From the NCBI GenBank assembly GCA_002803225.1, contig NXFV01000306.1:16179-80178 (forward strand): DNA of 64,000 nt. Reading direction: 5' to 3'. This document shows, one piece after another, positions 25,015 through 42,555 of this stretch. Position 1 is the first letter of the stretch, and the number at the start of each line of letters is the position of its first letter. Made by a program: the position numbers and the translations under genes. The notes beneath the pieces were generated by a model. That model searched no databases and was not told the DNA's origin. It saw nothing but the letters and a program-made list of their open reading frames with translations. This DNA comes from Gamarada debralockiae (lineage: Eukaryota; Ascomycota; Leotiomycetes; Helotiales; Hyphodiscaceae).

Positions 25015-25302
25015 CACCAGGGGGTGTACTAATTGATGACGGATTTGTCAGCAGCCAGAACACCAAAAACAAAACGCGTAAATAAATGGTCTTTCTTACG
25101 TATCTAGTACTACAGTAGAAGTCCGTGCGCGTATTGGTGAGATGCTAGATTAGGTGTAAGAGAGTCGTAGAATCAAAGGGAGCACCAATTAAGAGTGATA
25201 TATGGTAGTATTGTAGAGAATTAAGAACACAGACTTTACAGCTCAATTTTTAGTGTTTTCGGCTGTTGACAAATCCGTCATCAATTAGTACACCCTCTGG
25301 TG
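25015..25302. repeat. inverted repeat with arms of about 55 nt
   Basis: The left arm (about 25015-25070) and the reverse complement of the right arm (about 25247-25302) share a sequence starting CACCAG, continuing through GGTGTACTAATTGATGACG, GGATTTGTCA and CAGCC, to a CAC-AAAAA end. The few mismatches are almost all transitions. The right arm lies on the 3' end of the RTA1-like pseudogene, so the left arm is an inverted partial copy of that gene end. The loop is about 175 nt. Confidence 0.8.
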
Positions 25303-31572: not shown

Positions 31573-32818
31573 ATTAGAGATGGCTTATGATATATACTTG
31601 AAAAGAGCTATCCGGACCTGGACGCTGCCGCCTCTGTACTTCCACACTCATGATGTAACGCCAACGAATACCTTGCATTGAACCCCACAAAATTGATGGA
31701 AGACGTCAGACAAGTAACTTCTAAGAGGGTGCATTCGCAAATGGTCGACAGTTTGTCAAGGGTTCTTTGTTGTGATTCGCATCTAGTGATGTGGAGTGAT
31801 TTCCGTGAACCTCCTCGTCATTGAATCAGGGTTCATTCGACCCACATTGGCCCCGCCGTTGCAAATTTCATGTGAAGGTGAAGTCATCCAAAGATAACCA
31901 AGGCGTGAGGCAGTTTAATACACTTGAAACCCCGATCCAACGAGCTAATTTAACCTATTAAGCTTGATCTGCCTCCAGAACATGAGGGCACTGAGTTGGG
32001 CGAAGGAAATATCAGAAAAGGGGCCAAGGCAAATGGAAGTGTTGCGATAGGACGGCTATGTCATACGCCGCTGCAGCCGTGGAGGAGCAACTGGCTATCA
32101 TCTACTTTGTACACTACTTTTGGGGAGGACTTTAGAATGGACGCTGCTATCTGACGCTAAAAGGATCTCACTGGAAGCAAGAAGGGTATCCTTCGTCATG
32201 CCCATGAATTCAGTGAAGAGAAAATACATTACTTCCGAACTTTCCTTAAGTAGAAAGCTATGCAGGGTTTAAATACCAATCAATCAATGCTTCAAGACAG
32301 TGCGTAATTGCTCCTTCCCTCAATTTTCCTTTTCTGCCATCGATCTGTTTGCAAGGCTCATCCGTCTACCGCTCTGAGCTCATAGCCCAAATATCATCCT
32401 TTGTGATCCTCCGACCAATTAGATGCACCGTTACGTCACAACGGTTTCAAGTTATCAGCCCCAACTAGGAACACCCGAAATCTCATCCTTGTAACTCCAA
32501 CAAAAACAATTTAAATTTCAAAATGGAACAATTCTTATCTATTTTCTGTCTCCACTTTAGATCTAGTACTTCTACACTCTTTAATCTACGTAACTACTTT
32601 TCCACAAAATTTAGTACGGTTAATTGATCACGCAGATATCTGAGGGGCGCGCGCGTGGCGGATCCGCCAATGACCCCGCTAATGCCGTAACCGGCCGTGG
32701 ATATCACCCCAACAAAATCCGCCGACCCTTCGCACTATACTATTAACGCGACCTTACGTCACACGACCTTAAGACTCAAGATGGTTCATAGTCACGTATA
32801 TTCGAGCCTGCTATACTA
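31573..32818. other. gene-free AT-rich interval left of the inverted-repeat element
   Basis: No open frame with support on either strand over 1.2 kb. It holds the promoter of the small gene to its left and the left insertion flank of the 5-kb element, including the TA at 32817-32818. Confidence 0.45.
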
Positions 32819-32945
32819 CAGTAAAAGGCGAATTGAGTGTCGCGAATTTTTTAGTTAAATCTTTTAAGCGGGCTCCACTTTTGGACTTTGTGGCTGTGCA
32901 CCCCTGCCGAGTCTGTAACTGAAAGTACCGTCGCTACCCACAGAG
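32819..32945 (+). repeat. left terminal inverted repeat of the NLR element
   Basis: Outer about 50 nt nearly identical to the inverted right end; inner part is more diverged. It starts CAGTAAAAGG after TA at 32817-32818. Confidence 0.85.
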
Positions 32946-33201
32946 TAGCGCGAGGGAGGAAAGGCGGCCGACCGTTTTGCCGCCATCAACCCTCTTATAT
33001 TATCCTCTACGATTTCATGAGAGACGCGAAACAGCGAGAATGTTTTAAGCTGAATAATATATATGTTGCTTGTAATACTGTACTATCCAGTAGTACTGTA
33101 ATTTAGCAATCTTAGTGTAGTAACTTATATAAACAACTGCTCCCCCAAGGCCCTCTCTATCAAAGTTATGAAAATTAATATAATTTAATTGAAAGGCCGT
33201 A

Positions 33202-36200
33202 TTACAGAAACAACTTTTGCAGCCCATAAAAGTCTTCTGGTTGAAGTGCCCCATGTATTCTTAAGAGCCGTTCTACCCTTTCATGTCCATAAAGCGATGC
33301 TAATTGTAAGGCGGTCCAGCCGCTGCTGTTCTCCGAGTTAATATTTACACTATTATTAAGTAGTAGCTGTACGACCTCGAGGTGCCCGCTCTGCGAGGCC
33401 CAGCAGAGTGACGTCCATCCGTCACTAGTAGTAGCATTAATATCGGCGCCCTTCTCGAGCAGTAGCTGCATGACCTTGAGGTGCCTGTTCTCTGAGGCCA
33501 AGTGGAGTAGTGTCCATCCGTTACGAGTAGTAGTATTCATATCGGCGCCCTTCTCGAGTAGTAGCTGCACGACCTCGAGGTGCCCGTTCTCTGAGGCCGA
33601 TTGGAGTGGCGTTAATCCGTAGCGAGCAGCATTGACATCGGCGCCCTTCTCGAGCAGCAGCTGCACGACCTTGAGGCGTCCGTTGTGTGAGGCCCAGTAG
33701 AGTGGCGTCGATCCGTAGCGAGCAGTATTCATATCGGCGCCCTTCTCGAGTAGTAGCTGCACGACCTCGAGGTGCCCGTTCTCTGAGGCCGATTGGAGTG
33801 GCGTTAATCCGTAGCGAGCAGCATTGACATCGGCGCCCTTCTCGAGCAGCAGCTGCACGACCTTGAGGCGTCCGTTGTGTGAGGCCCAGTAGAGTGGCGT
33901 CCGTCCGTTGCGAGCAGCATTGACATCGGCGCCCTTCTCGAGTAGCAGCTGCACGACCTCGAGGTGCCCGTTGTGTGAGGCCCAGTGGAGTGGCGTCGAT
34001 CGGTAGCGAGCGGTATTCGTATCGGCGCCCTTCTCGAGTAGCAGCTGCACGACCTCGAGGTGCCCGTTGTGTGAGGCCCAGTGGAGTGGCGTCATTCCGT
34101 AGCGAGCAGTATTCATATCGGCGCCCTTCTCGAGCAGTAGCTGCACGACCTCGAGGTGCCCGTTCTCTGAGGCCCGGTAGAGTGGCGTCGATTCGTCACT
34201 ATTAGTAGTGTTAATATCGGCGCCCTTCTCGAGCAGTAGCTGCACGGCCTCGAGGTGCCTGTTCCCTGAGGCCCAGTGGAGTGGCGTCCATCCGTCACTA
34301 GTAGCAGCATTGACATCGGCGCCCTTCTCGAGCAGTAGCTGCATGACCTCGAGGTGCCCGCTCTGCGAGGCCCAGTGGAGTGGCGTCCATCCGTCACTAG
34401 TAGCAGCATTGACATCGGCGCCCTTCTCGAGCAGTAGCTGCATGACCTCGAGGTGCCCGCTCTGCGAGGCCCATTGGAGTGGCGTCGATCCGTCACTAGT
34501 AGCAGTATTTATATCGGCGCCCTTCTCGAGCAGCAGCTGTACGATCTTGAGGTGCCCGTTCCCTGAGGCCCAGTGGAGTGGCGTCCATCCGACACTATCA
34601 GTAGCATTGACATCGGCGCCCTTCTCGAGCAGCAGCTGCACGACCTTGAGGTGCCCGTTCCGCGAGGCCCAGTAGAGTGGCGTCTGTCCGTCACTATCAG
34701 CAGCATTGACATCGGCGCCCTTCTCGAGCAGCAGCTGCACGACCTCAAGGTGCCCGTTCCGCGAGGCCCAGTGGAGTGGCGTCGATCCGTCACTAGCAGT
34801 AGCATTGACATCTGCGCCCTTCTCGAGTAGCTGCTGCACGACGGCCTGAATTCCAAAGAATGCTACCAAATACAGCCCTGTTATATTCTTTGGGAACCGT
34901 TGGCTGTACCCTGTATCTGATGAGTATAGCTTCTTGGCTAGGAGGCCCTGACTCGATGCCTCTAATTGGGCTTTTCTCTCAAGAAAATTATTGACTTCCG
35001 GGATTAGTATAAAAGCCTTCTGAGCGTGGTAGCCCCAATTATGTGCTGCATAGTCGTATAGCTTATTCGATTGAAGCCGTTGCTCAAACTCGTTATTATT
35101 CTGACAAATCCCATTCTCGAACTCATTAAATGAGAGGTATGTAACACAAGTTGCTGTGATCTCACTCTCAGCCTTTGGGGACCATTGGCTTTGTGTTCGC
35201 TCGAAGTACTCTTGTGTTGTGTAATGGACTAATCGAATGATACTACTCTCTTCGTCGATAGTAACTAACCCCGCACAAACAGAGACCATGTCTTCACTCT
35301 GTGGTAGATTCTCTTCATCAAGCTTAGAGTCGCCAATCTCTATAGCAAGGGCGTGCTGGAGTTCTAATATAGTTAATGGTCTCTTTGCACACGTGATCCA
35401 GGACAAGACTTGTTTTGCTAGCTCTTCTTGGTCGTGTAGCTGCCCTTCGATACGATCCATTGCGTCATTATATGCACAATCATATGTATTCGTTCCTATA
35501 TGTAGTTTTGCAATAGCGGCTCGGATAGCTTTAGCTGATCTCTTTCCAATTAGAGAATCGAGATGGAGCTGTGCAAGAAGAAACCTTTAAATAGGTTAGC
35601 ACTTAGTCTTCTATATAGAGAATATAAGGAACTTACATTCCCTTGACTAGTAGCACAATCCCAGTTTTGATTTCTTTTTGTAGGTCTGGGTTACGACCAA
35701 CAAAAGCTGGGAGTCGATACATACAACCATCGAGATATCGTCGGACATCTTCCTCACTCGCACGAATCTCTAGTGAAATGCTCTCTTCAAACCTCTCCGT
35801 AACCTCAGGCAAGAATCTTGAAGTCGCAAAGACATTTGCACTTGACTTAACCTGAGCTAAGAAGATCTCTGTTAAGAGTCTGGTTCGGCATCCATCAGTC
35901 ACTTGACACTCGTCGAGTGCGTCGATAATGATAAAGACCCTTGAAAACATTGTAGTGACAGACTGAAGCGTTTTTGATATTTCATCAAATAATGGCCGTG
36001 TTCGTTTGATCTTGTGTTTTTCATACAGAGCTTTCACACTCTCTGGTAAAGAAACCCTCTCCTGGCTCAGCTGCTTTAATAGGCTTGCAAGCAAGCTATC
36101 AGCCTTCTGTTCGTCTTGCCGCCGGAAGTTGCAATAGAGGTACGCAATGCCAATGTCTGCCTCCCTCCGGAAGCGCATGGCCAAATCATCAATGGTAATC

Positions 36201-36979
36201 GCAGTAAGAATTGTCTTCCCGGCTCCAGGCATCCCAGGACAAAACAGTGTCTTCTTTGGGGTTTGCACCCATGTCTGATATTCATCCGAATCAATAAGCC
36301 ATTGCCCAGTCCCCGCTTCTCGTCGACTAATGAAATCGCTTTGCTCTGGCGCATAATCGACAGTAGTGAGCCACTCGAGAATGGTCTGCCGCTCTTCGCG
36401 ATGCTCTCGGTCATCTTGGCGCTCATTCAAGCGATCCACAGCCACTTTCGTAGCTAGGGAGGTTTGGCTAAAGATATTCAGTCAGATTGAATTGTATATA
36501 AATGATAATGCGCAATTACCTGGCAAGTTTTCCTTGGAACGCATTTAACAGAGTAACGTTTGCCACGATACGGCTCCGTAGATCGCGTATATCATCCGGC
36601 TCCCACTTTAACCTCTTCCATACTCTCTTTATACTTCTACCAACGCCCTTTAATCCTGACTCAAGCTCGCGATACTTGTCAAGTGTAAGTTCTAGCTTCT
36701 CGAGGACGTTTCGACAGCCGCTTGCGATCTCGTGGAGCTCTTTCGTGTCTTCGTTGTTAAGCTCTCGTCCTGATAAGACTTCGAGGTCTTGAAGAACAAT
36801 TGAAAGGCTTCTGACTCTATTATTTGAAAATAAATTAGCGCTAGTCATTAACTTGACAGTATCCTATACTCATCGGAAATGTCCTTGAACTGGTCAGGGG
36901 CGTCGATGAATTCCTTCCGGATCCTGATTGCAAGCTCGATCACTGCGATAAAATCACCGACGCTAAAACCAAAACTCAT
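33202..36979 (-). CDS. NLR-type STAND NTPase: helical N-domain, NACHT, 16 ankyrin repeats
   Basis: Four exons (36979-36870, 36816-36520, 36467-35637, 35584-33202) with 46-53-nt introns join in phase to 1,206 residues. Residues 1-135 form a helical N-terminal domain (MSFGFSVGDFIAVIELA, DISDEVRSLSIVLQDLE) common at the front of fungal STAND proteins. The NACHT NTPase follows, with Walker A GMPGAGKT at 214-221 and Walker B FIIIDALDEC at 314-323. A winged-helix-like segment lies at about 455-545 (QVLSWITCAKRPLTILELQHALA). Sixteen ankyrin units span about 650-1190, of 32 or 33 residues and unusually alike. Such proteins are thought to sense ligands through the repeats and trigger heterokaryon incompatibility or immune-like cell death; the ligand here is unknown. 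The gene is intact and sits wholly inside the inverted-repeat element. Confidence 0.9.
33450..34850 (-). repeat. near-identical ankyrin-coding tandem repeats
   Basis: Units of 96 or 99 bp repeat with the conserved stretch CTCGAGCAG/CTCGAGTAG and GGCGCCCTT. Units 10-11 and 12-13 of the protein are almost identical over about 190 bp (about 33590-33780 against 33780-33910), showing a recent two-unit duplication. Confidence 0.9.
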
Positions 36980-37439
36980 TGTGATAGCAGGTACAGCCCT
37001 GTTATTAGCATAGGATAAGGCAGGCTAAATGGAGAGTAGATGGAGATGAAGCAGAGAATAAAGAAAAGTCGTTCTGCAGCTTCGCAAAGAAGATCGTCTG
37101 CACTCAGCCGCACGAGGCTGGATGCGCCGGTGAGGCAGACTCGGGCATGATGCGCTGGCCATGTTGGACTTGCATAGGAGACAGAGATTGTCCACTTAGG
37201 ACATATGAAGCCAAGCTGAGAAGCTAGAAGGGTTACCGACAACATTCGAAATGCTCTGGTCAGAGTAGTCCTATAGTAGCCTTGTGCATGGCCACCGCAC
37301 TCTACATGCAATCGTATAGAGATTGCAACGAAGGCTGAGCGGACACATTCTTGCCGCCGGTGCGAGTATCTGGGGTCTTACACAGCGTCTGCTATAAAAT
37401 CCGCCCATTCTCCATGTTCGAGAATAGTTCTAATAGGAA

Positions 37440-37730
37440 TTAAAGAAGGTCGAAGTTCTTGGATCGCGCAGTGGTCTTGGATATTATGTGAAACCCCGTA
37501 GAAACTCCGAGCCACGTGTCCTCTCCGTCGACAACCTCCTTGCTGCTTGCCTCGATACTTGTCAATTTAGAAGGCATCCCATCATGGAAAATACTACCTT
37601 TGATTGGCTCGACAATAATTAGCTGTGCAGCATTGATGTGCGACACCATGGTCGCTGACGCGAAACGCGCTGACTCTAGCGGAGTGGAAAAGGAGAATGA
37701 AAGGATAGGATTTGCCAATTCTGCCCTCAA
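37440..37730 (-). other. unassigned open frame inside the element
   Basis: A 96-codon minus frame lies between the NLR start and the right inverted repeat. Composition is protein-like (VDGEDTWLGVSTGFHIISK), and it might be an upstream exon or relic, but no family, start context or splice partner is clear. It does not resemble a transposase. Confidence 0.3.
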
Positions 37731-37744
37731 GTCCCTCGCTCCGC

Positions 37745-37872
37745 TCTACGGTTATTAGCGGCGGTACCTTGGGGTACAAACTGGGGTGGGTGCACAGCCA
37801 CGAGGTCCAAAAGTGGCGGCCCCTTAAAAGATTTAACTAAAAAATTCGCGACACTCAATTCGCCTTTTACTG
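37745..37872 (-). repeat. right terminal inverted repeat of the NLR element
   Basis: Reverse complement of the left terminal repeat. It ends CTTTTACTG before TA at 37873-37874. Confidence 0.85.
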
Positions 37873-37884
37873 TAGTTTGTCTTC

Positions 37885-39659: not shown

Positions 39660-42555
39660 GTTAGCGCTTCTTCTGGAGCTCGCCCACCCGAGATTGATGC
39701 GCCGCGATGCGGAGAATCGTGGACTGTACCAATGGGTCTCCGGATCCGAGACCCGAGACGGGAGCTTCCCAAACATCCAGCTGTTATACCGTCGGACTGG
39801 ACACGCAGCACAAGTCGGCCAATTCTGACCGTAGTTGCTGACTCAGGCCAAAATGTGCAGATAGAACCATCGAAAAAGTTTCCAGCAAAACTAGAGCCTC
39901 TCGATGAGGAGTTTGGGAGAGACGCCTTCTCGCGAGAGGTGACTACACCTTTCAATGGACCCCTTCCGACGTGTGGAGGATCTAGCCTAAAGCCTCATCA
40001 GGGGAAGTGGGATGTGCAGAAAGAATCCCAGTATAGTCGCCAGTTCTCGATTTCTGACGCTCATATTGATGGTTTGCCTTATATCACAAGAGACGGTGAT
40101 TTCATGTTCGGAGCAGAGACAATGTCAGATGCGTCCTCGGCAGCTACGAGCTGAGCCAGAGGTAAATCTACTTGTTTCTCAAAGAGTGGAAGGTCTGCTT
40201 CTTCTGCATCGTCCTCTTGCTCCTCCACAGGTCACTACGATGGGAATTCCGAGAAACTTGAGAGACATCAACTTCCGACCTGGCATCAAGACAGTAAACC
40301 ACAGCAACCAAGCCAATATTCCGAAATACCCCGACCTTTCAAAAAGGAACGCATTGTATGTAAAGAAAGTCAGGACATATTAATCACCAAGCCCACACCA
40401 AGAAGAGAATACCTTGACAAACTGGAAACACCTGAGAAGTTCTTGTTGGTGCGCCATGATTTGGAAAAGGAGCAGAGGCAATCAGGAAAGAGAAGCAACG
40501 CAAAGCACATCTTCGAGCACTGAATCAGGCAAATTTACTGAATATGGACTCGGAAGATTCTGCTGACAGAAGTCAAGTCTTGGTAAACAACGACTTGCAA
40601 GCTTGTACGCTGGGAGCTTGTGGAAGGACGACGCCAGTACATCAAACCTTTGGTACTCCTACCTCTTCTAGTGCAAGTTCTGAAACTCTTCCTCTTCTTC
40701 ATCAAGAAGAAAGCATGAGTCCAACCCCGCTCCACATGCCTGGGTTCGAATCAGAAAGAGCTCCCCTAAGAGGCTCCCAGATTGACTCGACGTCTTCGGA
40801 GGATACTATCGATTGGGAAGAGGACAGTGATGCTCCCAGCTCTTCCCAATTTACGCGCCTACTCTTTGCTGGTTAGGATGAGGCAAAGCTGCAAATGGGA
40901 GCTTCTCTTCTTCGAAGCCATATGACGCCAGTGCAATCTAAATTTGTTGACAGATTAATGATAGAGTTCTGGACCATCTTTGACAACAACTGGCCGACAG
41001 GCACAGGTCAATATGAGGTGGGATCTGGCGAAGCACATCAACCAAGTAGTTCATCCGCATCTGATTCTGGAACGTTCTCTCTTCGTTGAGTGCACCGAAG
41101 CGCCGCAGAAATGATGACGGAGAAGAAGGTGAAACAGATGACCACTCTGGACGGGGGTGCAAGCGACTGGACAAGTTACCGGTGGTGGGAGAAGAGGACG
41201 TCCATATGAGGCTGTTTGCCTGCCCCTTTCGGAAACGCGACCCTCGGAAATACTCCGTCAAGGAGTGGCCCTCAATCCACAAAAGACAAACGCTCGACTG
41301 AAATAAGTTAACTGCCTTATGGAACCTCGTTAATGTTTCATTAACAATCGGCTGATAGAGCCCATCTCTGCCAATATCACCACATTCAACAGTGCGTACG
41401 GTGCAAAGTGGTTTTCGATTCTGAAGAAGACCTCGATGCGCACACCATGGCCATAGCTAGATGTGATGTCGAAGAGAGCGAACCTGTGGATGGTACGACC
41501 AGAAAGATGAAAGATCAGATACAATCGAGGAAGAAGTCCCATCCTGGACAGACGGAAGTCGAAAAGTGGGAACAGATATACAGAATATTGTTTCCAACTG
41601 CGGCAGTTCCGGATCCTTGTACGTGATATTTCATCTTTTCTCTTCTCTAACCGAAAATATAACCCTACTTTCCCATTGACACGCTGTCTACAGCTAATAA
41701 TTTTTCAGACTTCGAGCCAGTGTTAGACTATGACGCACAGAGGCCGCAGTCTCCAGATTCCGGCAGTCTGTCAGCATTTGAATCCTACCTCAGCCGAGTG
41801 TTTCCCGGCTTTGTGCGAAGAGTTTTTGAGTCAGCAATCAGTAATGAATTGCAACCCATCGAGACACAGCTACAAAGTCGAATGATCAAATTGATACAAG
41901 AAGCACAAAGGCAAGCTTTCTTAACCTTCCATGATATGAGAAGGACGAAATCTGAAGCTGGACCACCAATCGGACTCGATACGGAGATGGCCTCGTCTCT
42001 GGAGAGAGACCAACAGACAAGTATGGAGGCTTTTTTCCAGCCTCCCTCACCTACAGTTCAGACTGGACCTTTCTCCGACTTAGCTGAACTCGAAGTCACC
42101 CAGCAAGATACAGGGCATCATGCCTCATCGAACTCAGGCTATGCTTCTCACAACACTCTCTTCAAATCTTCGCCCGATGCCACGCTGAACAGAACGGAGA
42201 ACGGTGCCGCGTTCACTTCTGGAATCAATGTTCAAATAAACTCAGAAATAGGTAAAGAAACGGACTTTCCCGATTTTGATACTGCACATTTCGTAGATTT
42301 CAACGGGCCAGAAAGCGCTGCTCCATCTACATGGCTGGACATGCCACAGAACTAGTCAAACATTCCAAGCAGCGAACCACTTCCCGCTCCCTCCCGAAAG
42401 GGGCACTCAATCACGACGCCCTACCGATAGAAATTCCACAGACATCCACCGACGTATCGCTTGAGGAGCCATGGCCTTTAAGTATGGACTCATTGGGAAT
42501 AGACGTTGAGTTGGAGGATGACCTGGACATGCCGAGGAGACAGGACGTTGAATAG
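39660..42555 (+). pseudogene. decayed C2H2-type zinc-finger-family gene
   Basis: The plus strand carries one long gene homologous to the large fungal proteins with the FACPFRKRDPRKYSVKEW segment followed by a C2H2-like HHIQQCVRCKVVFDSEEDLDAH finger, then RKMKDQIQSRKKSHPGQTE and a C-terminal region (DYDAQRPQSPDSGSLSAF). It is interrupted repeatedly: a stop at 40152-40154, a TAG at 40874-40876 where Gln fits, a frame change near 41085, another after KEWP near 41270, an intron donor reduced to TAAGTT by loss of its G near 41308, and a TAG near 42353. One intact intron remains (41619-41708). Mixed frameshifts and CAG-to-TAG changes show a pseudogene with a RIP flavour. Confidence 0.75.

Follow-up and report, generated by a model that had tools for sequence, protein, structure and literature searches.

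The window analyzed here, a stretch of 64,000 nucleotides from the ascomycete Gamarada debralockiae (contig NXFV01000306.1, positions 16,179 to 80,178), contains a 5,054-bp element (32819 to 37872) in which a single long gene, encoding a NOD-like receptor (NLR), lies between inverted terminal repeats flanked by TA. We consider this element to be a member of a family of six complete elements that probably moves, or has moved, by cut-and-paste with a DD34E transposase supplied in trans, and we put the probability of this at roughly 0.8. The family is best read as a set of non-autonomous Tc1/mariner-like elements in which allorecognition genes have replaced the transposase. An earlier note, made from the window's sequence alone, had proposed that the NLR gene is cargo of a non-autonomous, TA-inserting element, and the proposal gains support from the six-element family, from related empty sites for two of its members, and from ends that are not separate miniature inverted-repeat transposable elements (MITEs).

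The element is embedded in contig C107 of a 54.3-Mb genome assembled in 1,112 contigs. Its target-site duplication consists of a TA at 32817 to 32818 on the left and a TA at 37873 to 37874 on the right, and the terminal inverted repeats occupy 32819 to 32938 (plus strand) and 37753 to 37872 (minus strand). The first 50 nt of the two repeats are identical, the first mismatch falling at nt 51. The inverted arms (32815 to 32903 and 37788 to 37876) are 94% complementary over 89 nt, and profile similarity extends for approximately 120 nt on each side, becoming weaker beyond approximately 90 nt. This agrees well with the earlier description of about 50 nt of near-identical and about 130 nt of recognizable repeat with TA on both sides. 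The complementarity continues for 2 nt outside each TA (AC and GT), which is within chance. The window contains exactly two copies, oppositely oriented, of the outer 30-mer, which is composed of the TA and 28 nt; 100 shuffles gave an expectation of zero.

Further copies of the terminal repeats, for which the earlier note had proposed a search, are present in the same genome. The end sequence of the family is CAGTARAAGGCGAATTGRGTGTCGC. Searching with 142 nt from the left end of the window element gave 19 matches, all starting at query nt 1, and a 27-nt pattern with up to three mismatches allowed found 26 ends in the 54.3 Mb, the reversed pattern finding none. The TA is part of the 27-nt pattern, and 24 of the 26 ends carry it; the TA is absent from the 142-nt query, and of the 20 ends beginning at nt 1, TA precedes 19 and TG the remaining one. 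A second query, the right end of the C37 element, yielded nothing beyond the complete ends already found except an inner match of 35 nt on C387, and viral contigs searched for the end pattern gave no match. Half of the ends (13 of 26) form six complete, inward-facing pairs spanning 2.8 to 6.4 kb, and the other 13 are unpaired. The complete elements are those on C107 (the window element, 5.05 kb), C634 (5.8 kb), C951 (2.8 kb), C37 (3.7 kb), C1084 (6.4 kb), and C576 (4.05 kb). Every one of these is bordered by TA on the left and on the right and lies in different flanking sequence. Two of the features by which Tc1/mariner elements are recognized, a TA target-site duplication and terminal inverted repeats, were found. 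C37 has two tandem left ends (L022 1404 and 1544), 140 bp apart and each preceded by TA, and ends on C576, C283, and C62 (L025 2823, L031 1364, and L054 1522) form a subtype whose resemblance to the other ends is confined to roughly the outermost 50 nt; the C576 element has one end of each subtype.

To look for empty sites, we built for each complete element a query of its left and right flanks with one TA between them and searched the same genome. The joined flanks of the C951 element, which carries a HET gene, found at least 32 other places where the match continues through the junction without a break (83 to 94% identity; 40 of 288 candidates scored), and a single TA is found at the junction in all five copies aligned. 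This element is inserted in a dispersed repeat of approximately 270 bp, at least 32 other copies of which are uninterrupted. The joined flanks of the C1084 element crossed the junction at four other places (67 to 82%). Three of these were aligned, with TA at the junction on C952, CA on C60, and neither on C713, where the alignment is poor; the fourth place is on C414. Since the C951 and C1084 elements sit in repeats that are uninterrupted elsewhere at the junction, they were inserted as units. Copies of the 270-bp dispersed repeat lie on C941, C502, C243, C185, C349, and others (L062 to L066).

Could the two ends in the window instead be independent MITEs that landed by chance on either side of an NLR gene? 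TA-flanked MITEs are common in fungi, and the 13 unpaired ends look solo, yet we regard this explanation as very improbable. Neither end in the window is accompanied by a second end; full MITEs, each with its own second end, were what the earlier note had named as a finding that would undo its reading. Short paired copies of the family did not turn up either, 2.8 kb being the length of the smallest of the six. The pairs are all inward-facing, the window ends resemble each other most closely (94% over 85 nt, against at most approximately 86% with other ends), and two of the units are wholly absent at homologous sites. An identity of the window element itself as a MITE was likewise rejected, given its 5.05 kb, its long gene, and the lack of second ends.

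The cargo gene of the window element lies on the minus strand (33202 to 36979) and is of the NACHT-ankyrin type. GT-AG models predict a product of 1,206 to 1,210 aa with three introns, at 36857 to 36817 (or 36869 to 36817), 36519 to 36468, and 35636 to 35585, and the gene looks intact, as the earlier note had said of the single NACHT-ankyrin gene that it saw. Both the nucleotide-binding domain and the C-terminal repeats of a fungal NLR were found with Pfam. The exon at 35633 to 36445 (minus strand) matches NPHP3_N (7.1e-38) and NACHT (2.9e-7), and 15 Ank stretches were matched in 33202 to 35460. Much of the latter region is a repeat array (33365 to 34842, minus strand) with a 99-bp period, approximately 15 copies (15.1 copies of the unit), and 86% matches between copies. 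The N-terminus gave a weak match to PigL_N (1.2e-4, below its cut-off) and a score of 0.044 for SesA.

The other complete elements carry different genes, most of them predicted to be of immune or self-recognition type. The C634 element encodes DUF676 (esterase) and PNP_UDP, followed after one in-frame TAG by NB-ARC and TPR. The C951 element encodes HET, and the C576 element HET with a weak Ank match. The C1084 element contains a broken HET gene in two pieces on opposite strands (L023 1864 to 4791) together with a DDE_3 match (E value, 5e-26). Compared with the C576 HET, the two pieces have identities of 63% (165 aa) and 58% (79 aa). The first part of the gene is turned around relative to the rest, and we conclude that an inversion broke it; the C1084 HET alone stays below the Pfam cut-off. 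Only ULD_2, a ubiquitin-like domain, was found in the C37 element (E value, 1.7e-6). On the inside of six of the 13 unpaired ends there are HET, NLR, or HeLo domains or repeat domains of the matching kind: HET-NACHT-WD40 on C180 (C180:14000-19365), patatin-NB-ARC-TPR on C1097, HeLo-kinase on C604 (L030 6080 to 7828), HET on C49, WD40 on C112, and TPR on C1096. The domain order on C180 is the layout of Podospora HET-D and HET-E. For C604, no second end was found within 4.7 kb. Two other features of that contig are a broken fragment related to the window NLR (C604:101530-101766, 52%), approximately 550 bp outside the family end, and a different small element of 1.3 kb (L030 7943 to 9223) with 49-nt inverted ends and pieces of a Tc1-like transposase.

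Such a collection might also arise if these were ordinary Tc1-like transposons with incidental cargo, immune genes dominating through their abundance and their tolerance of being moved. The genome contains at least 150 HET (770 candidates, 150 scored), at least 88 NACHT (189 candidates), and at least 43 NB-ARC matches (67 candidates), and ordinary genes border the ends on C160 and C283. Against these stands the frequency of immune cargo. HET, NACHT, or NB-ARC above the Pfam cut-off is present in four of the six complete elements, for which the chance is 6e-4 to 4e-3, and in five of six if the broken C1084 HET is counted, for which it is 2e-5 to 2e-4; these odds assume that every one of the 1,026 candidates is genuine and that they are distributed uniformly, which is generous as to density, and clustering would raise the chance values. 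A second family with other ends, described next, also carries an NLR. On balance, we consider incidental cargo rather unlikely.

The second type of element is found at C433:46504-51750 (L074 1205 to 6451). It is 5,247 bp long and has TA on both sides, and its CAGT ends, which are unrelated to those of the window family, are 84% complementary over 51 nt and start with CAGTCGCTTGC; the end sequence of this second family is CAGTCGCYTGCAAAA. Inside are NPHP3_N/NACHT and ankyrin frames, the NLR being 61% identical to the window gene over the NACHT exon, and next to the left end is an HTH_32 frame, a transposase N-terminus, with an E value of 1.1e-6, which falls slightly short of the cut-off. An 11-nt stretch at position 41159 of the window that matches the second-family end was set aside as chance, there being no TA and no match to a longer pattern. 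The window NACHT exon has 22 listed paralogs at 54 to 67% identity. Three other paralogs that were examined show no such ends, so packaging is not general to these NLRs, yet it has occurred with two kinds of ends. We give even odds to the broader proposition that at least two unrelated Tc1/mariner-like end families repeatedly exchanged their transposase for an allorecognition or NLR gene, that mobile receptors spread as units, and that the receptor repertoire is in part a transposon repertoire.

The class of the window family was judged from the transposase pieces between and beside its ends. Among 136 DDE_3 matches listed (150 of 189 candidates scored), the only one between paired family ends is at C1084 41693 to 42118. 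In this fragment, the second D and the E are separated by 34 residues (DD34E), and the frame is interrupted. The transposase N-terminus of C1084 recurs as relics adjoining ends on C576, C283, and C634, and elsewhere in the genome it was seen only as a 35% relative on C433. A profile match at L024 685 to 753 was disregarded, as it lies at and outside the C284 end. The window element itself lacks a transposase. Near its right end, at 37621 to 37725 on the minus strand, there may be a faint remnant of the N-terminal part (36 aa, 47% identity, E value of 0.006); a profile built from the relics did not recover it. The earlier note had looked to pogo/Fot-type elements, and this assignment was given up because the only transposase fragment of the family matches DDE_3, not DDE_1; DDE_3 and the DD34E spacing in C1084 point to a Tc1/mariner type.

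A rival explanation is that the family is extinct: its moves would be old, its transposase lost, and the window unit a fossil, now fixed, that retains a useful gene. No uninterrupted transposase frame was found between family ends among the DDE_3 matches listed, and end similarity between members is mostly 80 to 95%. However, the identity of the window ends over 50 nt argues for constraint or recent activity. The assembly is also a draft in which 8 of the 13 unpaired ends (C62, C112, C180, C283, C284, C848, C1096, and C1097) exit their contig within approximately 5 kb, and a full copy may be missing from it. We hold extinction to be a real prospect, with somewhat less than an even chance of being right.

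Several further observations weigh against the interpretation of these elements as non-autonomous carriers of immune genes. The DDE_3 fragment of C1084 and its N-terminus are not in one uninterrupted frame, and a working transposase was not found. When ends were paired by similarity, 16 of 720 permutations reached the observed score, and only for C107 is an element's own partner the best-matching end. The empty site that the earlier note had suggested seeking at the window locus did not appear, the joined flanks giving only self matches in their own genome; related empty sites were found for two other members. Joined flanks from C634, C37, and C576 likewise gave no junction-spanning match in the genome. 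Three of four NLR paralogs examined (C562, C646, and C458, the last cut by a contig end) have no comparable spanning inverted repeat. The genome as a whole is very rich in HET and NLR genes, and two of the six positive unpaired ends (WD40 on C112 and TPR on C1096) rest on repeat domains only. On the inside of the remaining 7 (of 13) unpaired ends, no domain of immune type was found in the interior examined: the 5.7 kb on C160 encode a transcription factor and an MFS transporter, the 5.0 kb on C283 contain a FAD-binding protein and the transposase relic, C62 has no long frame in 3.8 kb, and on C848 (5.0 kb) and C785 (1.5 kb) one frame each was scanned and matched no family. For C297 and C284, 1.5 kb and 0.7 kb were examined. 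The C848 end is itself doubtful, as it matches only the first 25 nt and may be due to chance. A HET gene near the C62 end, recognized by eye and with no Pfam match, was dropped as cargo because it lies outside the end.

If the elements are mobile carriers, a Tc1/mariner-type transposase supplied in trans would bind and pair both ends, excise the unit at TA, and insert it at another TA. Cutting and insertion at TA by a trans-acting transposase is established behavior of the Tc1/mariner superfamily, and this, together with the TA empty sites, is the basis for proposing cut-and-paste in trans. Presumably, cargo genes were captured separately and replaced the transposase, of which several members would still have the first codons next to one end; replacement of the transposase body is suggested by the N-terminal relics beside the ends. 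Selection on allorecognition or immunity would then retain the copies that bear cargo, and the window copy itself may have moved by the same route. Our simplest guess as to why immune cargo is favored is selection for receptor diversity.

The surroundings of the window element are those of ordinary genes, including topoisomerase II, Cns1/TTC4, IBR, and RabGAP proteins. No HET, NACHT, or NB-ARC domain was found around the element in the 10 open reading frames scanned, out of 23 of at least 200 aa. The earlier note had contrasted neighboring relics damaged by repeat-induced point mutation (RIP) with an intact NLR gene, a contrast that is not seen in the composition of 1-kb intervals from 20 to 50 kb: the composite RIP index exceeds zero in 2 of 30, at 33 to 34 kb, inside the ankyrin array, and at 38 to 39 kb. 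The window also contains a MITE-like fold-back repeat (25015 to 25302) with 55-nt arms (85%) and a 178-nt center.

Among known systems, the closest counterpart is ToxTA (formerly ToxhAT), a 14-kb element of cereal-infecting Pleosporales with a TA target duplication, a single-TA empty site, and 74-bp inverted ends of approximately 92%; it is regarded as a non-autonomous Tc1/Mariner element, and a patatin-TPR gene of the NLR family is among the genes that it holds (PMC12506042, PMC6737239). The likeness to the present family lies in TA duplication, long inverted ends, one-TA empty site, and NLR-family gene inside. ToxTA is just one element, noted for its effector gene and itself located within a Starship, whereas here six elements carry different, mostly immune-type genes and the relics of one transposase. 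Starships themselves carry NLR and patatin-type cargo in filamentous ascomycetes (PMC12134995, PMC12506042), but they are tens to hundreds of kilobases long, with a tyrosine-recombinase captain and direct repeats, unlike the small elements with TA and long inverted ends described here; size and ends thus speak against a Starship, although no search for the captain family was made. The Fusarium impala/mimp and Fot5/mFot5 systems pair Tc1/mariner elements with MITEs at a TA target, the non-autonomous copies being mobilized in trans (PMC3599309). Their ends resemble those of the transposase-bearing element and are in this respect and in their TA target comparable to the present family; mimps and mFot5 are short, non-coding, and found beside genes, whereas here the gene is within the element. 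Pyrenochaeta lycopersici has a large HET/NLR expansion with 42 HET genes close to repeats (PMC6034849). Proximity to repeats is what the available text of that report describes, with no mention of cargo units between inverted ends, whereas in the present family the cargo lies inside the ends. No description of a many-member family of small elements with HET/NLR cargo was found in the literature searched, which took in few subscription journals.

The NLR and HET repertoires of fungi vary strongly in size and content, and to our knowledge the route by which receptors reach new places is poorly known. If the interpretation is true, mobile elements would let fungi reshuffle their immune repertoire. 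With a defined end and a TA target, mobile receptors would be recognizable in any genome through their ends and empty sites. The finding would also connect the domestication of transposon cargo with fungal self-recognition. In its light, the patatin-TPR NLR in ToxTA may exemplify a wider habit rather than an accidental passenger.

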